NCBI GenBank assembly: GCA_021812385.1
Contig: JAKANO010000008.1
Coordinates: forward strand, 62,001 to 126,000
DNA from: Pseudomonadota bacterium
GTDB lineage: Bacteria; Pseudomonadota; Gammaproteobacteria; Burkholderiales; Thiobacteraceae
Length of the DNA stretch: 64,000 nt
Reading direction: 5' to 3'
Made by a program: the position numbers and the translations under genes. Of this stretch, positions 32,769-39,466 are shown one piece after another; within the stretch, counting starts at the first letter, position 1; each line of letters opens with the position of its first letter. Below the pieces are notes generated by a model, which saw only the letters and a list, made by a program, of their open reading frames with translations, did not search any database and was not told where the DNA came from.

Positions 32769-33614
32769 ATGTTCGGCAATTGGCTAAAAACCGCGGTTTT
32801 GATGGCTGGCATCGTGGCCTTGTTTGGCGCCGTGGGTCTGGCTTTGGGCGGCCAGAGCGGCATGCTGCTGGGCTTGCTGGTTGCCGGGGCCATGAATTTC
32901 TTCGCTTATTGGAATTCGGACACAATGGTTTTGCGCATGTACGATGCGCAACAAGTCGATGAAAGCAGCGCGCCGATGCTGTATCGGATGGTGGCCGAAT
33001 TGGCCCGCAACGCCGAAATTCCCATGCCCAAGGTATACATCGCCAATCAAGCCCAGCCCAATGCTTTTGCCACCGGGCGCAATCCCGAGCATGCTGCGGT
33101 GTGCGCCACCACCGGCATTATGCAACTGCTGAGCGCGCGCGAGTTGCGCGGCGTGATGGCGCACGAGCTCACCCATGTGAAACACCGCGATACCTTGATC
33201 TCGACCCTTTCCGCCACCGTCGCCGGCGCAATTTCGATGCTGGCGCAATTCGGTATGTTCTTCGGCGGGCGCAATCGCGAAGAAGGCGGCAACCCTTTTC
33301 TGAGTATACTGGTGATGATTCTGGCGCCGATTGCCGCCATGCTGATTCAAATGGCCATTTCGCGCGCGCGCGAATTTGAGGCGGATCGCGGCGGCGCGGA
33401 AATCAGCCGCGACCCGGAAGCGCTGGCCAGCGCCCTGCAAAAAATACACAACTATGCGCACCAAATTCCCAACGACACCGCAGAACAACATCCGGAAACA
33501 GCGCAAATGATGATTATCAATCCCCTCTCGGCTGGCGGCATCAGCGGCTTGTTCAGCACCCATCCGCAGACCGAAGAACGCGTCGCGCGCCTGATGAGCA
33601 TGGCGCGTGCTTGA
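32769..33614 (+). CDS. htpX: membrane zinc protease HtpX
   Basis: A 281-residue M48 metalloprotease of the inner membrane that degrades misfolded membrane proteins. Two N-terminal membrane segments (about 6-50) precede the zinc motif [10 protein letters not shown] (HExxH). Two more hydrophobic segments ([32 protein letters not shown]) come before the third ligand in [17 protein letters not shown] precedes the ATG. Its 3' end overlaps rsmB by 8 bases. Confidence 0.96.
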
Positions 33615-34881
33615 ACCGCAGGCCCTCGCCGCTGGCGTCATAGCGGAGGTGCTTTCGGGCAGGAACCTTAACGAAGTTTTGGCCGAACTGTGGCCGCGCC
33701 ATCCCGATTTGCTGCCGCGTCAGCGCAGTGCGGTACAGGATTTAAGCTATGGCACGCTGCGCTTTTTTTCGCGCCTGGATTTTTTACTGCAAGCGCTGAT
33801 TACGCGCCCCATCACCCACGAAGGCGTGCGCTGCTTGCTGTTGGCGAGCTTATATCAATTAAATTACGCAAAAACCCGCCCCTATGCCGTGGTGGACCGG
33901 GCGGTGGAAGCGGCGCGCGCCTTGGATGCGCCTTGGGCGGCCAAGTTTGTGAATGGCGTGCTGCGCAACTTTTTGCGCCGAAAGCCGGAATTGTTGCTGC
34001 GCGCAAATGATTTCGAGCCTGCGCGCTACTGCCATCCACAGTGGTGGATTGACCGACTGCGCACGGAATATCCGCAGGATTGGGCCGCGACGCTCAACGC
34101 GAATAACAGCCACCCTCCCATGACCTTACGCGTCAATCGCCTGCAAACCAGCCCCGAGAATTATTTAGCGCTATTGCAAGCAGCCGAGTTAGAAGCTGAA
34201 TTAATAGCGCCGGGCGCGATTCGCCTCATAAAACCCGTAGCCGTCGACAAGCTTCCTGGATTCAGGGATGGCATGGTCTCGGTGCAAGATGCCGGCGCAC
34301 AACATGCCGCCGCCTTGCTGGATCTAGTTTCCGGGCAAAGAGTTTTGGATGCTTGCGCCGCACCGGGCGGCAAGGCTGCGCATATTTTAGAGACTGCCGG
34401 CGTCGATTTAGTCGCGCTCGACAAAGACCCGGCACGGCTTCAGCAGGTAGCGGACAATTTCCAGCGCTTACAGCTCAAAGGGCAGATCGTGACGGGCGAT
34501 GCCGCAGAGCCGAATGGCTGGTGGGATGGCCGGCCATTCGACCGCATCTTGGCGGATGTGCCATGTTCCGCCTCCGGCGTGGTACGGCGCCATCCGGATA
34601 TTAAATGGCTGCGCAGACCCACCGATATAGCGCAATTTGCCGCCGCGCAGAGATTGATTCTCGCTTCCCTGTGGCGTCTGCTCGCGCCCGGTGGTAAATT
34701 GCTGTACGCAACTTGCTCTGTATTCAAGGAAGAAAACGAGGAAATCGTCGCCGGCTTTACCGCGAACCAGTCAAATGCCCATCGCCTTGCCCTTGCCAAC
34801 CTTAACGGCCAACTGCTGCCTGACCCGACTCATGACGGCTTTTTCTATGCCCTGCTGGAAAAAACTGCAGGCGCTGCTTAG
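33607..34881 (+). CDS. rsmB: 16S rRNA m5C967 methyltransferase RsmB
   Basis: 424 residues. An N-terminal NusB-like RNA-binding domain (about 1-130) is followed by a SAM methyltransferase domain. AdoMet site is [34 protein letters not shown] supplies the first catalytic Cys motif, and [14 protein letters not shown] the second. The start is a GTG at 33607 inside the htpX 3' end. The DUF4390 gene starts before its stop. Confidence 0.95.
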
Positions 34882-35413
34882 CGCGCTCTCCATCGCCCTG
34901 GTTAGCGTCGCGCCGCTTTCTGCCCATGCCGAGGGCCTTGCGGTTAAAAAAGCGGAGCTGATTGCCAGCGAGGATTGGTATTTTCTGCAGGCTGATTTTG
35001 ATATCGATTTGAATAAATCGCTGGAAGAGGCTTTGGAAAAAGGCGTTAGCCTCAATTTCTTGGTCGACCTCGAAGTAACGCGGCCTCGCTGGTACTGGAC
35101 CGACGAAGTCATGGTCTCCGCGCGGCAAAATATCCGCATCAACTACCATGCGCTAACACGCCAGTATCATTTATCCAGCAACAATATTACGCTGTCTTTC
35201 AATAGCTTGGCCGAAGTCAAAGAGCAATTAAAGCATATTGCCGATTGGAAAGTATTTGAGCGTAGCGTGCTCAAAAAAGGTACGGCTTACCGCGCGGCCT
35301 TGCGCATGAAGCTCGATATCAAGCAACTTCCGAAACCGCTGCAAGTGGAAGCCTTGGGGACCAAGGAATGGGATCTCGCTTCCGAGTGGTTTCGCTTTCC
35401 CCTGGCCCCCTAA
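34847..35413 (+). CDS. DUF4390 family secreted protein
   Basis: A 188-residue exported protein. The N-terminus [20 protein letters not shown], with SAHA just after, is a signal peptide. The mature domain (VKKAELIASEDWYFLQADFD, YHLSSNNITLSFNSLAEV, SEWFRFPLAP) fits DUF4390, which is almost always found between rsmB and ntrY in betaproteobacteria. Function unknown; context suggests envelope stress or nitrogen/redox signalling with NtrY. The chosen ATG lies inside the last codons of rsmB, giving coupled translation. Another ATG at 34832 is possible. The ntrY GTG is 6 bases beyond the stop. Confidence 0.87.
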   Translation: MPCWKKLQALLSALSIALVSVAPLSAHAEGLAVKKAELIASEDWYFLQADFDIDLNKSLEEALEKGVSLNFLVDLEVTRPRWYWTDEVMVSARQNIRINYHALTRQYHLSSNNITLSFNSLAEVKEQLKHIADWKVFERSVLKKGTAYRAALRMKLDIKQLPKPLQVEALGTKEWDLASEWFRFPLAP

Positions 35414-35419
35414 AATAAC

Positions 35420-37555
35420 GTGTCCAAACTGCGCTATGTCGTAATAGCCTGTGTCGGCCTTGGCGCCGTGCTGTTATATTTGCTGTCGCGCGCCAGCAGC
35501 AATACTGCTTCTTTTGGCGAGTATTACACGCTGTTGATCGTGTTGAACAGCTTGCTCGCCGTGACCCTGGCGGGGCTGATCGCCTATCAAATATGGGTCG
35601 TCAGCAAGCGCATCCGGGCGCGGGTGTTCGGTGCCCGACTCACCCTGCGTCTCATCATTTTATTTGCCTTAATGGCGGTCGTGCCGGGCACCTTGATTTA
35701 TGGTGTTTCGGTGCAGTTTCTGACGCGATCCATCGAGTCCTGGTTCGACGTTCGGGTAGACAGCGCCTTAGAGGGCGGGATTAATTTGGGCCGTAGTGTG
35801 CTCGATGCGCAATTGCAGGACTTGGTTAAAAAATCGGAAGCGGCCGCCCTGTCGCTGGCCGATGAGCCAACGAGTTCGCAGTTTTCCGCCTTGAACCGCA
35901 TCCGCGAACAAACCGGGGTGCAAGAAGCCACTTTATTTTCCTCACGCGGCCAAGTTCTGGCGTTCTCCAGTTCGGAAACCAGTTCATTGTTGCCGCAGTT
36001 CCCCTCGCCGGCGATTTTGCGCACCGTGCGCGCCCAACGCCCTTTTAGCAGCATTGAATCCCTGGGCGGCAAAGGTCTTTATTTGCGCGTAATTGTCCCC
36101 GTCAATGTCTTGTCTTTAAGCGAAGACATCCGGATTTTGCAGTTATTGCACCCCGTGCCCGCAAAAGTTGCGCGCGATGCTGAGGCCGTGCAAGAGGTCT
36201 ACCGCGATTACAAGGAACTGGCCTTTTCGCGCCACGGCTTAAATAAAATCTTTTCGCTCACGCTAACCATGACACTGCTGTTCTCGCTACTTTCGGCGGT
36301 GGCTTTAGCGTTTGTTTTGTCGCAACGCATGAGCGCGCCGCTGGGCTTATTGGCGGAGGGAACGCGTGCCGTTGCGAAAGGTGATTTCAGCCCCATGCAG
36401 CCGGTGAAGGCGCGCGATGAGCTGGGGCAGCTGATGCAATCGTTCAATACCATGACGCGGCAGTTGGCGGAAGCGAGTTCGGTGGTTGAGCACAAACAAC
36501 AGCAATTAGAGGCTTCAAAGGGTTATTTGGAAAACATCCTGGCGCATTTATCCAGCGGCGTAATTGCTATTGATGAGCGATTTTTTGTGAAGAGCGCGAA
36601 CCCTATCGCCACCCAATTGTTGGGGGTTGATTTCGATGACTTACGGGATTCGCGCATTTTTAACTTGGGTGAAAGTTTTCCCAAGCTTGAGCCTTTTGCA
36701 GAAGCGCTGACGCGCCGCTTGCGCAGCGACGAGCAAAAGGAATGGCAAGAGCAAATTGAGATCTCCACGGATGGCGGCATTAAAATTTTAATGATTCGCG
36801 GCAGCCGCCTGCCCGCTGCGATCGATAGCGGCTATGTTGTGGTTTTCGACGATGTGACGCACCTGATCCAGGCGCAACGCGATGCTGCTTGGGGCGAAGT
36901 TGCTAGGCGCTTGGCGCATGAAATTAAAAACCCGCTAACGCCGATTCAACTATCTGCCGAACGCTTGGCCCACAAGCTCGGGACTAAGCTTGAAACCGCC
37001 GATGCGGAAATGCTGGAACGTTCCACCCAAACCATCGTCAATCAGGTGGCCGCCTTAAAAACCATGGTGGATGAATTTAGCCAATATGCGCGACAACCTT
37101 CTCTTAACTTGCAAAGCCTGGATTTGAATTCCTTGGTTGAGGACGTGCTTACCCTTTATGAAAACTCGCCGGTTCCGGTTCATCCATTTTTGACCGACCA
37201 GCTGCCCCCCATCAGCGGCGACGCAAAATTATTGCGCCAAGTTGTTCATAATTTATTGCAGAACGCCCAGGATGCTTTAGCGAATCAACGCGAGCCTTTA
37301 ATTATGGTGCGCACCAGCGTCGAGCAGGGTTTTGCCTCATTGCGCGTGATCGATAATGGGTGTGGTTTTCCGCCAGAAATACTCTCCCGTGTTTTCGAGC
37401 CCTATGTAACAACCAAACCCAAGGGCACGGGGCTCGGTTTGGCGATCGTTAAGAAAATTGTTGAAGAACATCAAGGCCTGGTTGAAATTCGAAATCTAGA
37501 CGAGGGCGGCGCGTGCGTTTGCGTGAAATTGCCCTTGCGCGGGTCTATTGCATGA
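35420..37555 (+). CDS. ntrY: NtrY-like sensor histidine kinase
   Basis: 711 residues. Three N-terminal membrane segments (about 5-100) and a periplasmic region (about 110-270) lead to a fourth membrane segment, HAMP (MSAPLGLLAEGTRAVAKGDF), PAS (about 370-480), HisKA with phospho-His in RRLAHEIKNPLTPIQLSAERL, and HATPase (NLLQNAQDAL, DNGCGFPPEI, GTGLGLAIVKKIVEEH). This is the NtrY layout, linked in other bacteria to nitrogen or redox/oxygen control and envelope gene expression. The start is a GTG. It overlaps the region just before ntrX, with its stop 14 bases before the ntrX ATG. Confidence 0.93.
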   Translation: MSKLRYVVIACVGLGAVLLYLLSRASSNTASFGEYYTLLIVLNSLLAVTLAGLIAYQIWVVSKRIRARVFGARLTLRLIILFALMAVVPGTLIYGVSVQFLTRSIESWFDVRVDSALEGGINLGRSVLDAQLQDLVKKSEAAALSLADEPTSSQFSALNRIREQTGVQEATLFSSRGQVLAFSSSETSSLLPQFPSPAILRTVRAQRPFSSIESLGGKGLYLRVIVPVNVLSLSEDIRILQLLHPVPAKVARDAEAVQEVYRDYKELAFSRHGLNKIFSLTLTMTLLFSLLSAVALAFVLSQRMSAPLGLLAEGTRAVAKGDFSPMQPVKARDELGQLMQSFNTMTRQLAEASSVVEHKQQQLEASKGYLENILAHLSSGVIAIDERFFVKSANPIATQLLGVDFDDLRDSRIFNLGESFPKLEPFAEALTRRLRSDEQKEWQEQIEISTDGGIKILMIRGSRLPAAIDSGYVVVFDDVTHLIQAQRDAAWGEVARRLAHEIKNPLTPIQLSAERLAHKLGTKLETADAEMLERSTQTIVNQVAALKTMVDEFSQYARQPSLNLQSLDLNSLVEDVLTLYENSPVPVHPFLTDQLPPISGDAKLLRQVVHNLLQNAQDALANQREPLIMVRTSVEQGFASLRVIDNGCGFPPEILSRVFEPYVTTKPKGTGLGLAIVKKIVEEHQGLVEIRNLDEGGACVCVKLPLRGSIA

Positions 37556-37568
37556 TAATCGAGGAAGC

Positions 37569-38831
37569 ATGAGTAATATTTTAGTGGTTGACGATGAGGC
37601 CGGCATTCGCGAATTGTTGCAGGAAATTCTCAACGATGAAGGCCATCAAGTGCTATTGGCGGAGAACGCAGAAGCCGCAAGACTGGCCTTTGATCGCAAC
37701 GCCCCCGATCTGGTTTTGCTCGATATTTGGATGCCCGACACGGATGGCATCACCTTGCTTAAAGAGTGGTCTGCAGGCGGGCAACTGTCTATGCCCGTCA
37801 TCATGATGTCGGGGCACGGAACGATTGATACCGCGGTAGAGGCAACTAAAATCGGCGCCTTTGATTTTTTGGAAAAACCCATCGCGCTGCAAAAGCTTTT
37901 GCATACGGTCGGCCGCGCCATTAAACATAAAACGACGCGCAGCAAGCCCTTTTCCGGGCTTTCCGCTTTAGGCAAGAGCCCGGCCATTCTCGAATTGCAA
38001 AACCGATTGCAACAAGTCAGTCAATCACGGGGCGCGGTTTTATTGCTTGGTGAGCAAGGCAGTCATTTTGAATTGGCGGCGCGCGCATTGCACCCCAACG
38101 ATGCGCCGTGGGTTGGGCCCGACGATATGGCTTGGTTGGCCAACAACCCCTTGGATCTGTTGCAACAGGCCGAAAAAGGCACGCTGTTTTTAAACGGCGA
38201 AATTGCGCATCTTGGAAAGCTTGAACAAAAAGGCTTATCGCTGTTGATTGCGCGCCTGGATAAATTTGAAGTGCGCTTAATTTGTTGTTCTAGCCGCGCA
38301 CTACCGCGCCTGGTTTCCGAAGGACTGTTTGACCCGGACCTGTTTCAAGCCCTCAGCGGCCTTACGGTTTCTCTGCCGAGCTTGCGCGAGCACCGGGAAG
38401 ATGTTCCCGAAATCGCCAAACAATTATTGCTTTCCTTAATTGATGCAAAGGAAACATCGGCCAAAAGCTTTAATATTGCCGCCTTAAATCTATTGCGTTT
38501 ATATGACTGGCCCTTTAATTGGCGGGAGCTGCAAAATGTCGTTCGCACTGTCGCCATAACCTGCTTAACCGAGGAGATAGCCGCTGCCGATGTGAAGCGC
38601 GTGCTTGCGCAATTCGAGCAAGTCAACACGGTTGATGCGGCGAACAGCTTTAGTTTTGATTTGCCCTTGCGCGAAGCGCGCGATATGTTCGAGCGCTTAT
38701 ATTTCGAGCACCATATCGAAAAGGCTTCTGGCAATATGAGTCGTATCGCGGATACGGTGGGCTTGGAGCGTACGCATCTTTATCGTAAGTTGAAACAATT
38801 GGACGTTAAGTTTTCACGTAAACCTGATTAG
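37569..38831 (+). CDS. ntrX: NtrX-like response regulator with degenerate AAA+ module
   Basis: 420 residues, short for an NtrC-family regulator (NtrX about 450-480). The receiver is intact (ILVVDDEAG, Asp52 in LLDIWMPD, EKPI Lys103). The AAA+ region keeps the fold outline but not the machinery. Walker A reads GEQGSHFE where GESGTGKE is expected. The GAFTGA loop and its surroundings are absent. Walker B reads GTLFLNGEIAHL, and the arginine-finger stretch is FDPDLFQAL. A C-terminal Fis-type HTH remains (NMSRIADTVGLERTHLYRKL). It is probably a phosphorylation-controlled DNA-binding protein that no longer drives sigma-54 open complexes. GAGGA precedes the ATG at 37569. Its partner is the NtrY kinase directly upstream. 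Confidence 0.88.
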   Translation: MSNILVVDDEAGIRELLQEILNDEGHQVLLAENAEAARLAFDRNAPDLVLLDIWMPDTDGITLLKEWSAGGQLSMPVIMMSGHGTIDTAVEATKIGAFDFLEKPIALQKLLHTVGRAIKHKTTRSKPFSGLSALGKSPAILELQNRLQQVSQSRGAVLLLGEQGSHFELAARALHPNDAPWVGPDDMAWLANNPLDLLQQAEKGTLFLNGEIAHLGKLEQKGLSLLIARLDKFEVRLICCSSRALPRLVSEGLFDPDLFQALSGLTVSLPSLREHREDVPEIAKQLLLSLIDAKETSAKSFNIAALNLLRLYDWPFNWRELQNVVRTVAITCLTEEIAAADVKRVLAQFEQVNTVDAANSFSFDLPLREARDMFERLYFEHHIEKASGNMSRIADTVGLERTHLYRKLKQLDVKFSRKPD

Positions 38832-38839
38832 GAATCCAC

Positions 38840-39466
38840 ATGAGCGATGCTCTCAACTATCTCGTAACTGTTCGCGGCGACGCGTTAGGCCATTATTTTA
38901 AGTTTCTTAAAGATGCCGGAAAGCACTTGGACCCCAAGACGCGCAATTTAATTTCCGTCATTAGCAAGGTGCATTCGCAAACCGAGGGAGGCTTTAAGCA
39001 ATATTTGATGCGCGCGTTGCGCGAAGGCGCCACCCCATTGGAAATCATTGACGCTTTAGTGATGGCGTTTCCCACGCTCGGATTGGCTAAAATTGTTTGG
39101 GCCGCCGAGATAATTCTGGAAATGGATATCCCGGAATTTCACCCCGACATGATCAATAGCCAGCCCGGCTGGCATGAAGTTGGGTCTGCGGATGATTTTA
39201 TCGATCATGAAACCAAGCGCATAAGTTGTGAAACACGGGAGTTATTTGTTTACCGCAGCGGTTCCGATTTCAAGGTCTATGACAGCCGTTGCCCGCATCA
39301 AGTTACCAACATTCCCCATCTTGCTTTGCAGGGTAACCACCTGACGTGCCCGAAACATCATTGGAAGTTTGATATCACTAGCGGGGCTTGTATTGAAAAG
39401 GGAAATCAACCCTTGAAGGCTTTCCAGACCAAGCTTGAAAATGGCAAACTGCTCGCCTTCTGGTAA
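38840..39466 (+). CDS. carboxymuconolactone decarboxylase-like / Rieske [2Fe-2S] fusion
   Basis: 208 residues. Residues 1-100 look like an AhpD/CMD-type helical domain (HYFKFLKDAGKHLDPKTRNLI, PLEIIDALVMAFPTLGLAKI) but have no CxxC pair. Residues 110-208 form a Rieske domain with both ligand motifs, C151-P-H153 and C170-PK-H173, 16 residues apart between motifs. The Rieske part is of the soluble ferredoxin type. The fusion suggests a redox role with an unknown partner. The start is 8 bases beyond the ntrX stop, so it may be part of the ntrYX transcript; prkB follows after 72 bases with its own -10-like sequence. Confidence 0.82.
   Translation: MSDALNYLVTVRGDALGHYFKFLKDAGKHLDPKTRNLISVISKVHSQTEGGFKQYLMRALREGATPLEIIDALVMAFPTLGLAKIVWAAEIILEMDIPEFHPDMINSQPGWHEVGSADDFIDHETKRISCETRELFVYRSGSDFKVYDSRCPHQVTNIPHLALQGNHLTCPKHHWKFDITSGACIEKGNQPLKAFQTKLENGKLLAFW

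Follow-up and report, generated by a model that had tools for sequence, protein, structure and literature searches.

The window, the whole 64,000-nucleotide stretch of DNA analysed here, encodes an NtrX response regulator that we regard, with a probability of roughly 0.8, as the regulator of a PlrP–NtrY–NtrX system whose AAA+ domain has decayed to a folded, catalytically dead module and which controls ordinary (sigma70-type) promoters while neither hydrolysing ATP nor contacting sigma54. Sequence comparison established the basis of this reading, namely motif loss beside an intact receiver and HTH, a conserved operon, purifying selection and repeated deletion of the AAA+ core in relatives.

The ntrX locus and the motifs of its product

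The ntrX gene (37569..38831; forward strand, as are all features given below) is an uninterrupted frame of 420 codons, running from an ATG at 37569 to a stop at 38831. Its 420-residue product combines a receiver, an AAA+-type domain and a Fis-type HTH, with NtrX as the top family model, which places it in the NtrX class. The best NCBIfam model was NF051870 (NtrX), at 276.7 bits, below its 600-bit cut-off. In Pfam, the protein passed Sigma54_activ_2 (PF14532, 129 bits; gathering cut-off 25), and the ordinary sigma54 domain PF00158 gave a weak, broken match of 34 bits against a cut-off of 20.2.

Directly upstream, ntrY (35420..37555) encodes a membrane sensor kinase with NtrY_N, HAMP, PAS, HisKA and HATPase_c domains. 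It is preceded directly by rsmB (33607..34881; PF01189, 173.7 bits), a conserved upstream neighbour, and by plrP (34832..35413), a DUF4390 gene (PF14334, 178 bits at 34832-35410) whose start codon we placed at a signal-like N-terminus. PlrP is the predicted third component, with a role as described in PMC13001219. This arrangement is that of a PlrP-type NtrYX system. An earlier note on this DNA had described NtrX as the sole partner encoded beside ntrY, and whole-genome searches agree, finding a single NtrX (E ≤ 1e-30) adjoining the only NtrY. They returned no second, intact NtrX at E ≤ 1e-30 and no second NtrY; the next NtrY matches are confined to the kinase part, with identities of 32% and 30%.

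For comparison, 80 named betaproteobacterial loci were used, those of 595 that matched the degenerate query best, so that the sample leans to the degenerate form. The order rsmB-plrP-ntrY-ntrX was complete in 75 of these best 80 loci, the other five being cut by contig ends, and NtrY was present in 79, the exception (L214) being a sequence that begins 32 bases before ntrX. Downstream, positions 38840-39466 of the window, between ntrX and a phosphoribulokinase-like gene, encode a fusion of a carboxymuconolactone-decarboxylase-like and a Rieske domain. This fusion was absent from all 80 loci (best 80 of 595) within the available flanking sequence; in L154, a locus from the same genus, the kinase gene comes right after ntrX.

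The receiver (residues 1-119; 37569..37925; Response_reg, 101 bits) carries D8, D9, D52, S81 and K103, each kept in 59/59 aligned rows (58 loci plus the window), and the Fis-type HTH (residues 364-413; 38658..38807) matched PF02954 HTH_8 at 27.6 bits; both are intact, as had been claimed. The receiver being intact, the expectation that NtrX responds to NtrY is probably right, with phosphorylation by NtrY as the presumed route. Between these domains lie the eroded AAA+ core (residues 132-272; 37962..38384), recognised by PF14532 and by its predicted fold, and the AAA+ lid (residues 273-344; 38385..38600; PF25601 AAA_lid_14, 51.1 bits).

Alignment with intact activators of the same genome confirmed the motif changes listed in the earlier note. 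The former Walker A reads GEQGSHFE (residues 161-168; 38049..38072), and the Lys of intact enhancer-binding proteins is replaced by Phe167. The L1 loop that bears GAFTGA is excised (residues ~186-200; 38124..38168), the corresponding stretch spanning 13 residues (7 in another alignment) versus about 25 in intact proteins. The former Walker B reads LFLNGE instead of LFLDE, with one residue more (residues 206-211; 38184..38201). In alignment A1, the column of this extra residue, Gly210 (38196-38198), is otherwise filled only in the same-genus L019. In the former arginine-finger motif (residues 254-262; 38328..38354), FRxDLYYRL has become FDPDLFQAL, so that both arginines are lost. The protein thus has neither GAFTGA in L1 nor any of the Walker A Lys, Walker B Asp and arginine fingers of a bacterial enhancer-binding protein, and its sequence excludes the usual ATPase mechanism of sigma54 activators, which upholds the earlier statement that it cannot act as a normal enhancer-binding ATPase.

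Distribution of the eroded form and deletion of the AAA+ domain

An NtrX match at E ≤ 1e-42 was found in 378 of the 399 genomes of the window's order. About 258 of these matches extend over most of the protein, about 119 cover the receiver only, and one (G401, excluded from the receiver-only tally) is cut by a contig end. The receiver-only figure was tallied from E-values of ~1e-44 to 1e-54 and comprises families f3, f4, f8, f10, f18, f20, f25, f32, most of f35, and f50. In family f42, at least 11 genomes had no NtrX match at E ≤ 1e-42, and the system may be lost there.

The earlier note had proposed searching for the degenerate form in related genera, and the eroded architecture was found in all 80 loci (best 80 of 595). 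This set includes Neisseria, Snodgrassella, Chromobacterium, Nitrosomonas, Nitrosospira, Methylophilus, Thiobacillus, Aromatoleum, Dechloromonas and Accumulibacter; some metagenome-bin titles in it (Bordetella parapertussis, Klebsiella pneumoniae) are probably mislabels. Among these best 80 of 595, the Walker A Lys was kept in 0/80, the Walker B Asp in 5/80, the first arginine-finger Arg in 0/80 and GAFTGA in 0/80, and the L1 segment measured 11-13 residues versus 25 in intact proteins. Across the 39 full-length NtrX rows of the order, L1 was lost in all 39, and GAGK was retained in one, L059, an order member outside the 80-locus set. A genome of the same genus (L019/L154; 75% identity) shows identical losses at equal length. 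On the sequence evidence, degenerate NtrX is the ordinary form of this order and not a genome-specific oddity.

A graded series emerged across the classes of Pseudomonadota. The alignment against ATPase-intact NtrX that had been proposed as a check showed that 24/24 NtrX from other classes (presumably mostly Alphaproteobacteria) keep the Walker A Lys, Walker B Asp and arginine finger, all of which the window protein has lost together with L1; GAFTGA was found in 0/24. Gammaproteobacterial NtrX from outside the order gave intermediate counts (Walker A Lys in 35, Walker B Asp in 18, arginine finger in 35, all three ATPase residues in 15 and a long L1 in 31 of 50), which do not describe a random sample, since the 50 consist of 29 best-scoring loci, 19 short-span regions and two others. 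The short-span regions were chosen mainly for their short span, and 19 of 20 were used (L126 was dropped as truncated). Several outside-order gammaproteobacterial families (L107-L119, L092) also have a shortened NtrX AAA+ domain, apparently independently; L107 and L108 were placed inside the order in a weak 116-row tree, perhaps by long branches. Overall, GAFTGA was present in none of the 134 NtrX checked, including 17 without any AAA+ domain and a few truncated ones; its absence is no peculiarity of the window protein. Because GAFTGA is absent even where the ATPase motifs are intact, the simplest reading of these sequences is that the sigma54 contact was lost first and the ATPase residues later.

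The series extends to complete deletion of the domain. All 17 receiver-only relatives that were read encode proteins of 210-271 residues in which receiver and HTH are joined by a variable linker, with no AAA+ domain, and in all 17 ntrY lies directly upstream, indicating that receiver and HTH suffice for a maintained system. One genus (g36 of family f35) comprises 14 genomes, two with an eroded AAA+ domain (L055, L056) and 12 with the short form as assigned by E-value, five of which were read (L069, L070, L072, L074, L076). Within this genus, the eroded and the AAA-less NtrX share one ntrY setting, which amounts to a natural domain-deletion experiment.

Three trees bear on the number of deletions, with the AAA-less group for the AU tests defined before both tested trees were built. 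The first tree (116 rows, including 10 of the 24 other-class rows) was weakly resolved, and its starred branches force only one change. With 169 receiver and HTH columns, a single AAA-less clade was not rejected (AU p = 0.081). Once NtrY was added to receiver and HTH, a single origin was rejected (AU p = 0.0014), and the starred branches require three changes or more; this test used LG+G4 without a mixture model and carried a warning of two long branches meeting (L061 and L062), neither of which is an AAA-less row. The truncated rows L065, L066 and L126, as well as L019, were left out of all three trees; the two later trees contained no other-class rows and omitted the long or odd rows L046, L060 and L063, and L025 and L031 were also omitted from the NtrY-added tree. 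Given at least three changes and an AAA+-bearing outgroup, these sequences indicate that the whole AAA+ domain has been lost at least three times.

A broader scenario, which we consider possible but rather doubtful, is a one-way exit from sigma54 control whose steps are still visible in living lineages: GAFTGA would have gone first, followed by the ATPase residues, by L1 and finally by the whole AAA+ domain, the last in at least three parallel losses. The eroded module, kept by most of the order, would have acquired another role that needs no catalysis, as a dimer interface or a ligand sensor, and in some lineages, even within a genus, a variable linker could replace it.

The motif observations of the earlier note stand in full; its interpretation holds in part, as it did not include the general absence of GAFTGA, the order-wide degeneracy or the repeated deletion. 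To our knowledge, regulators with dead AAA+ domains have usually been described singly. In the present case, the orthologues of a single gene, with its operon unchanged, include ATPase-intact, eroded and AAA-less versions, and genus g36 has both of the latter; the contribution of the dead AAA+ domain thus becomes testable by swapping natural versions. Eroded NtrX proteins also match sigma54-interaction families, are likely to be misannotated for this reason, and are unsuitable for predicting betaproteobacterial sigma54 regulons.

Constraint, predicted fold and proposed mode of action

Selection on the eroded core was assessed from 15 close pairs and from alignment A2, which comprises 58 of the 80 loci (best 80 of 595) plus the window (59 rows). 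Core dN/dS was 0.01-0.21 in the 14 computable pairs, the window pair being saturated at synonymous sites; over the same pairs, receiver and HTH gave 0-0.08 and 0-0.06, respectively, where computable. Mean identity of the 58 relatives to the window was 0.75 for the receiver, 0.41 for the core, 0.43 for the lid, 0.23 for the linker and 0.69 for the HTH, and invariant columns numbered 44/119, 2/141, 2/72, 0/19 and 11/50, respectively. These estimates show purifying selection on the eroded core that is weaker than on receiver and HTH. An AlphaFold2 model of the window NtrX had a mean pLDDT of 88.5 and a pTM of 0.57, with blocks of residues 131-350 (core and lid) at 88-98. Core and lid superposed on the AAA+ domains of sigma54 activators at about 2.3-2.4 Å over 214-218 residues (ZraR, 1ojl_B: 2.4 Å over 218), and the eroded core is thus predicted to fold still as an AAA+ domain. 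Relaxed but real constraint, without conserved catalytic residues, fits selection for the fold rather than for the reaction.

Under the preferred reading, NtrY would set the phosphorylation of Asp52 under the influence of PlrP, the periplasmic DUF4390 protein; this input is proposed by analogy with Bordetella, where genetics indicates that PlrP keeps the kinase's phosphatase activity in check (PMC13001219). The phosphorylated receiver would promote a DNA-binding state and place the Fis-type HTH on DNA; the eroded AAA+ core would probably serve as a spacer or as the interface of a presumed dimer. NtrX would then activate or repress sigma70-type promoters, as proposed from GAFTGA-less relatives (PMC10274813).

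The constraint on the core could also reflect retained binding of something, and a switch without hydrolysis, set by a nucleotide or other small ligand bound to the core, is the strongest alternative, although an unlikely one. The core is confidently folded as well as under purifying selection, and the residue adjoining the lost Walker B Asp is acidic (E or D) in 76/80 loci (best 80 of 595). The fold matches of the model include VpsR and FleQ, with c-di-GMP named in the titles of their PDB entries, and Rhodobacter capsulatus NtrC reportedly depends on binding ATP but not on hydrolysing it (PMC10274813). However, the P-loop Lys is gone from every one of those best 80 of 595 loci, no more than two of the 141 core columns are invariant in the 59 rows, and the whole domain has been deleted at least three times.

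That ntrX is a decaying, functionless remnant is very improbable. The catalytic motifs are gone and change in the core outpaces that at the two ends, but dN/dS is low, the frame is full-length across the order, receiver and HTH are near-invariant, and the operon is conserved. Moreover, mutants of the like Neisseria gene have phenotypes (PMC8445170), with reduced expression of respiratory genes (Atack 2013, as told in PMC8445170 and PMC12697260); since the degenerate form occurs in Neisseria (L206, L223), this supports a function for degenerate NtrX.

A working sigma54 activator with unusual motifs is less credible still. The AAA+ fold is retained and the genome encodes sigma54 (RpoN), but L1 is excised, P-loop Lys and arginine fingers are missing, and GAFTGA occurs in 0/134 NtrX. 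The genome also encodes nine strong Sigma54_activat (PF00158) proteins, eight of which matched the patterns of Walker A GK and GAFTGA or GSFTGA, so that it did not abandon sigma54 control in general, and an indirect sigma54 role for NtrX is possible. The ninth (L008; G000:C12:286905-287405) has a Walker A but did not match the GAFTGA pattern, and may carry another variant of it. Finally, a frameshift or assembly error masking a normal AAA+ domain, which the earlier note had named as a possible refutation, can be dismissed, because the same-genus L019/L154 and orthologues throughout the order lack the same motifs in proteins of matching length.

Comparison with named systems

The closest structural match to the whole model was Brucella abortus NtrX (5m7n, 5m7o, 5m7p; Z 26.1, 35% identity), which shares the order of receiver, AAA+ fold and HTH with the window protein; the rmsd of 14.8 over 397 residues indicates that the domains are placed differently. 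Among closer relatives, the Neisseria proteins L206 and L223 (48-49% identity) share the degenerate architecture, the end of Walker A reading SPFE in L206 versus SHFE in the window. PDB entry 3co5, which we take to be from N. gonorrhoeae, aligns to residues 129-269 of L206 (4.3e-49) and to the window core (2.9e-18); given the match to L206, the structure of an eroded core of this kind has apparently been solved.

A four-class scheme of NtrX probably stems from Atack 2013. Neither graded loss nor parallel deletion was described in the results of our literature search, and in view of this scheme we do not claim that they are unpublished. That four classes of NtrX exist is stated in PMC12697260, and GCAn9TGC has been proposed as an NtrX site (PMC7240162). 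The NtrC proteins of Caulobacter and R. capsulatus are of the enhancer-binding type, lack GAFTGA and act at sigma70 promoters, and Caulobacter NtrX also lacks GAFTGA (PMC10274813). These NtrC proteins, however, reportedly depend on binding or hydrolysing ATP (PMC10274813), whereas the window NtrX has no P-loop Lys.

Among the nearest described systems are PlrR of Bordetella and NtrX of Herbaspirillum, whose operon order rsmB-plrP-ntrY-ntrX and kinds of receiver and HTH are those of the window. Both are described as AAA-less, in line with the statement that betaproteobacterial NtrX lacks the AAA+ domain of alphaproteobacterial NtrX (PMC13001219, citing Bonato 2016), whereas the window protein keeps a folded, eroded AAA+ domain. 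Our data refine this published view: most NtrX proteins of the order keep a recognisable, folded but inactive AAA+ domain, and its full absence arose several times.
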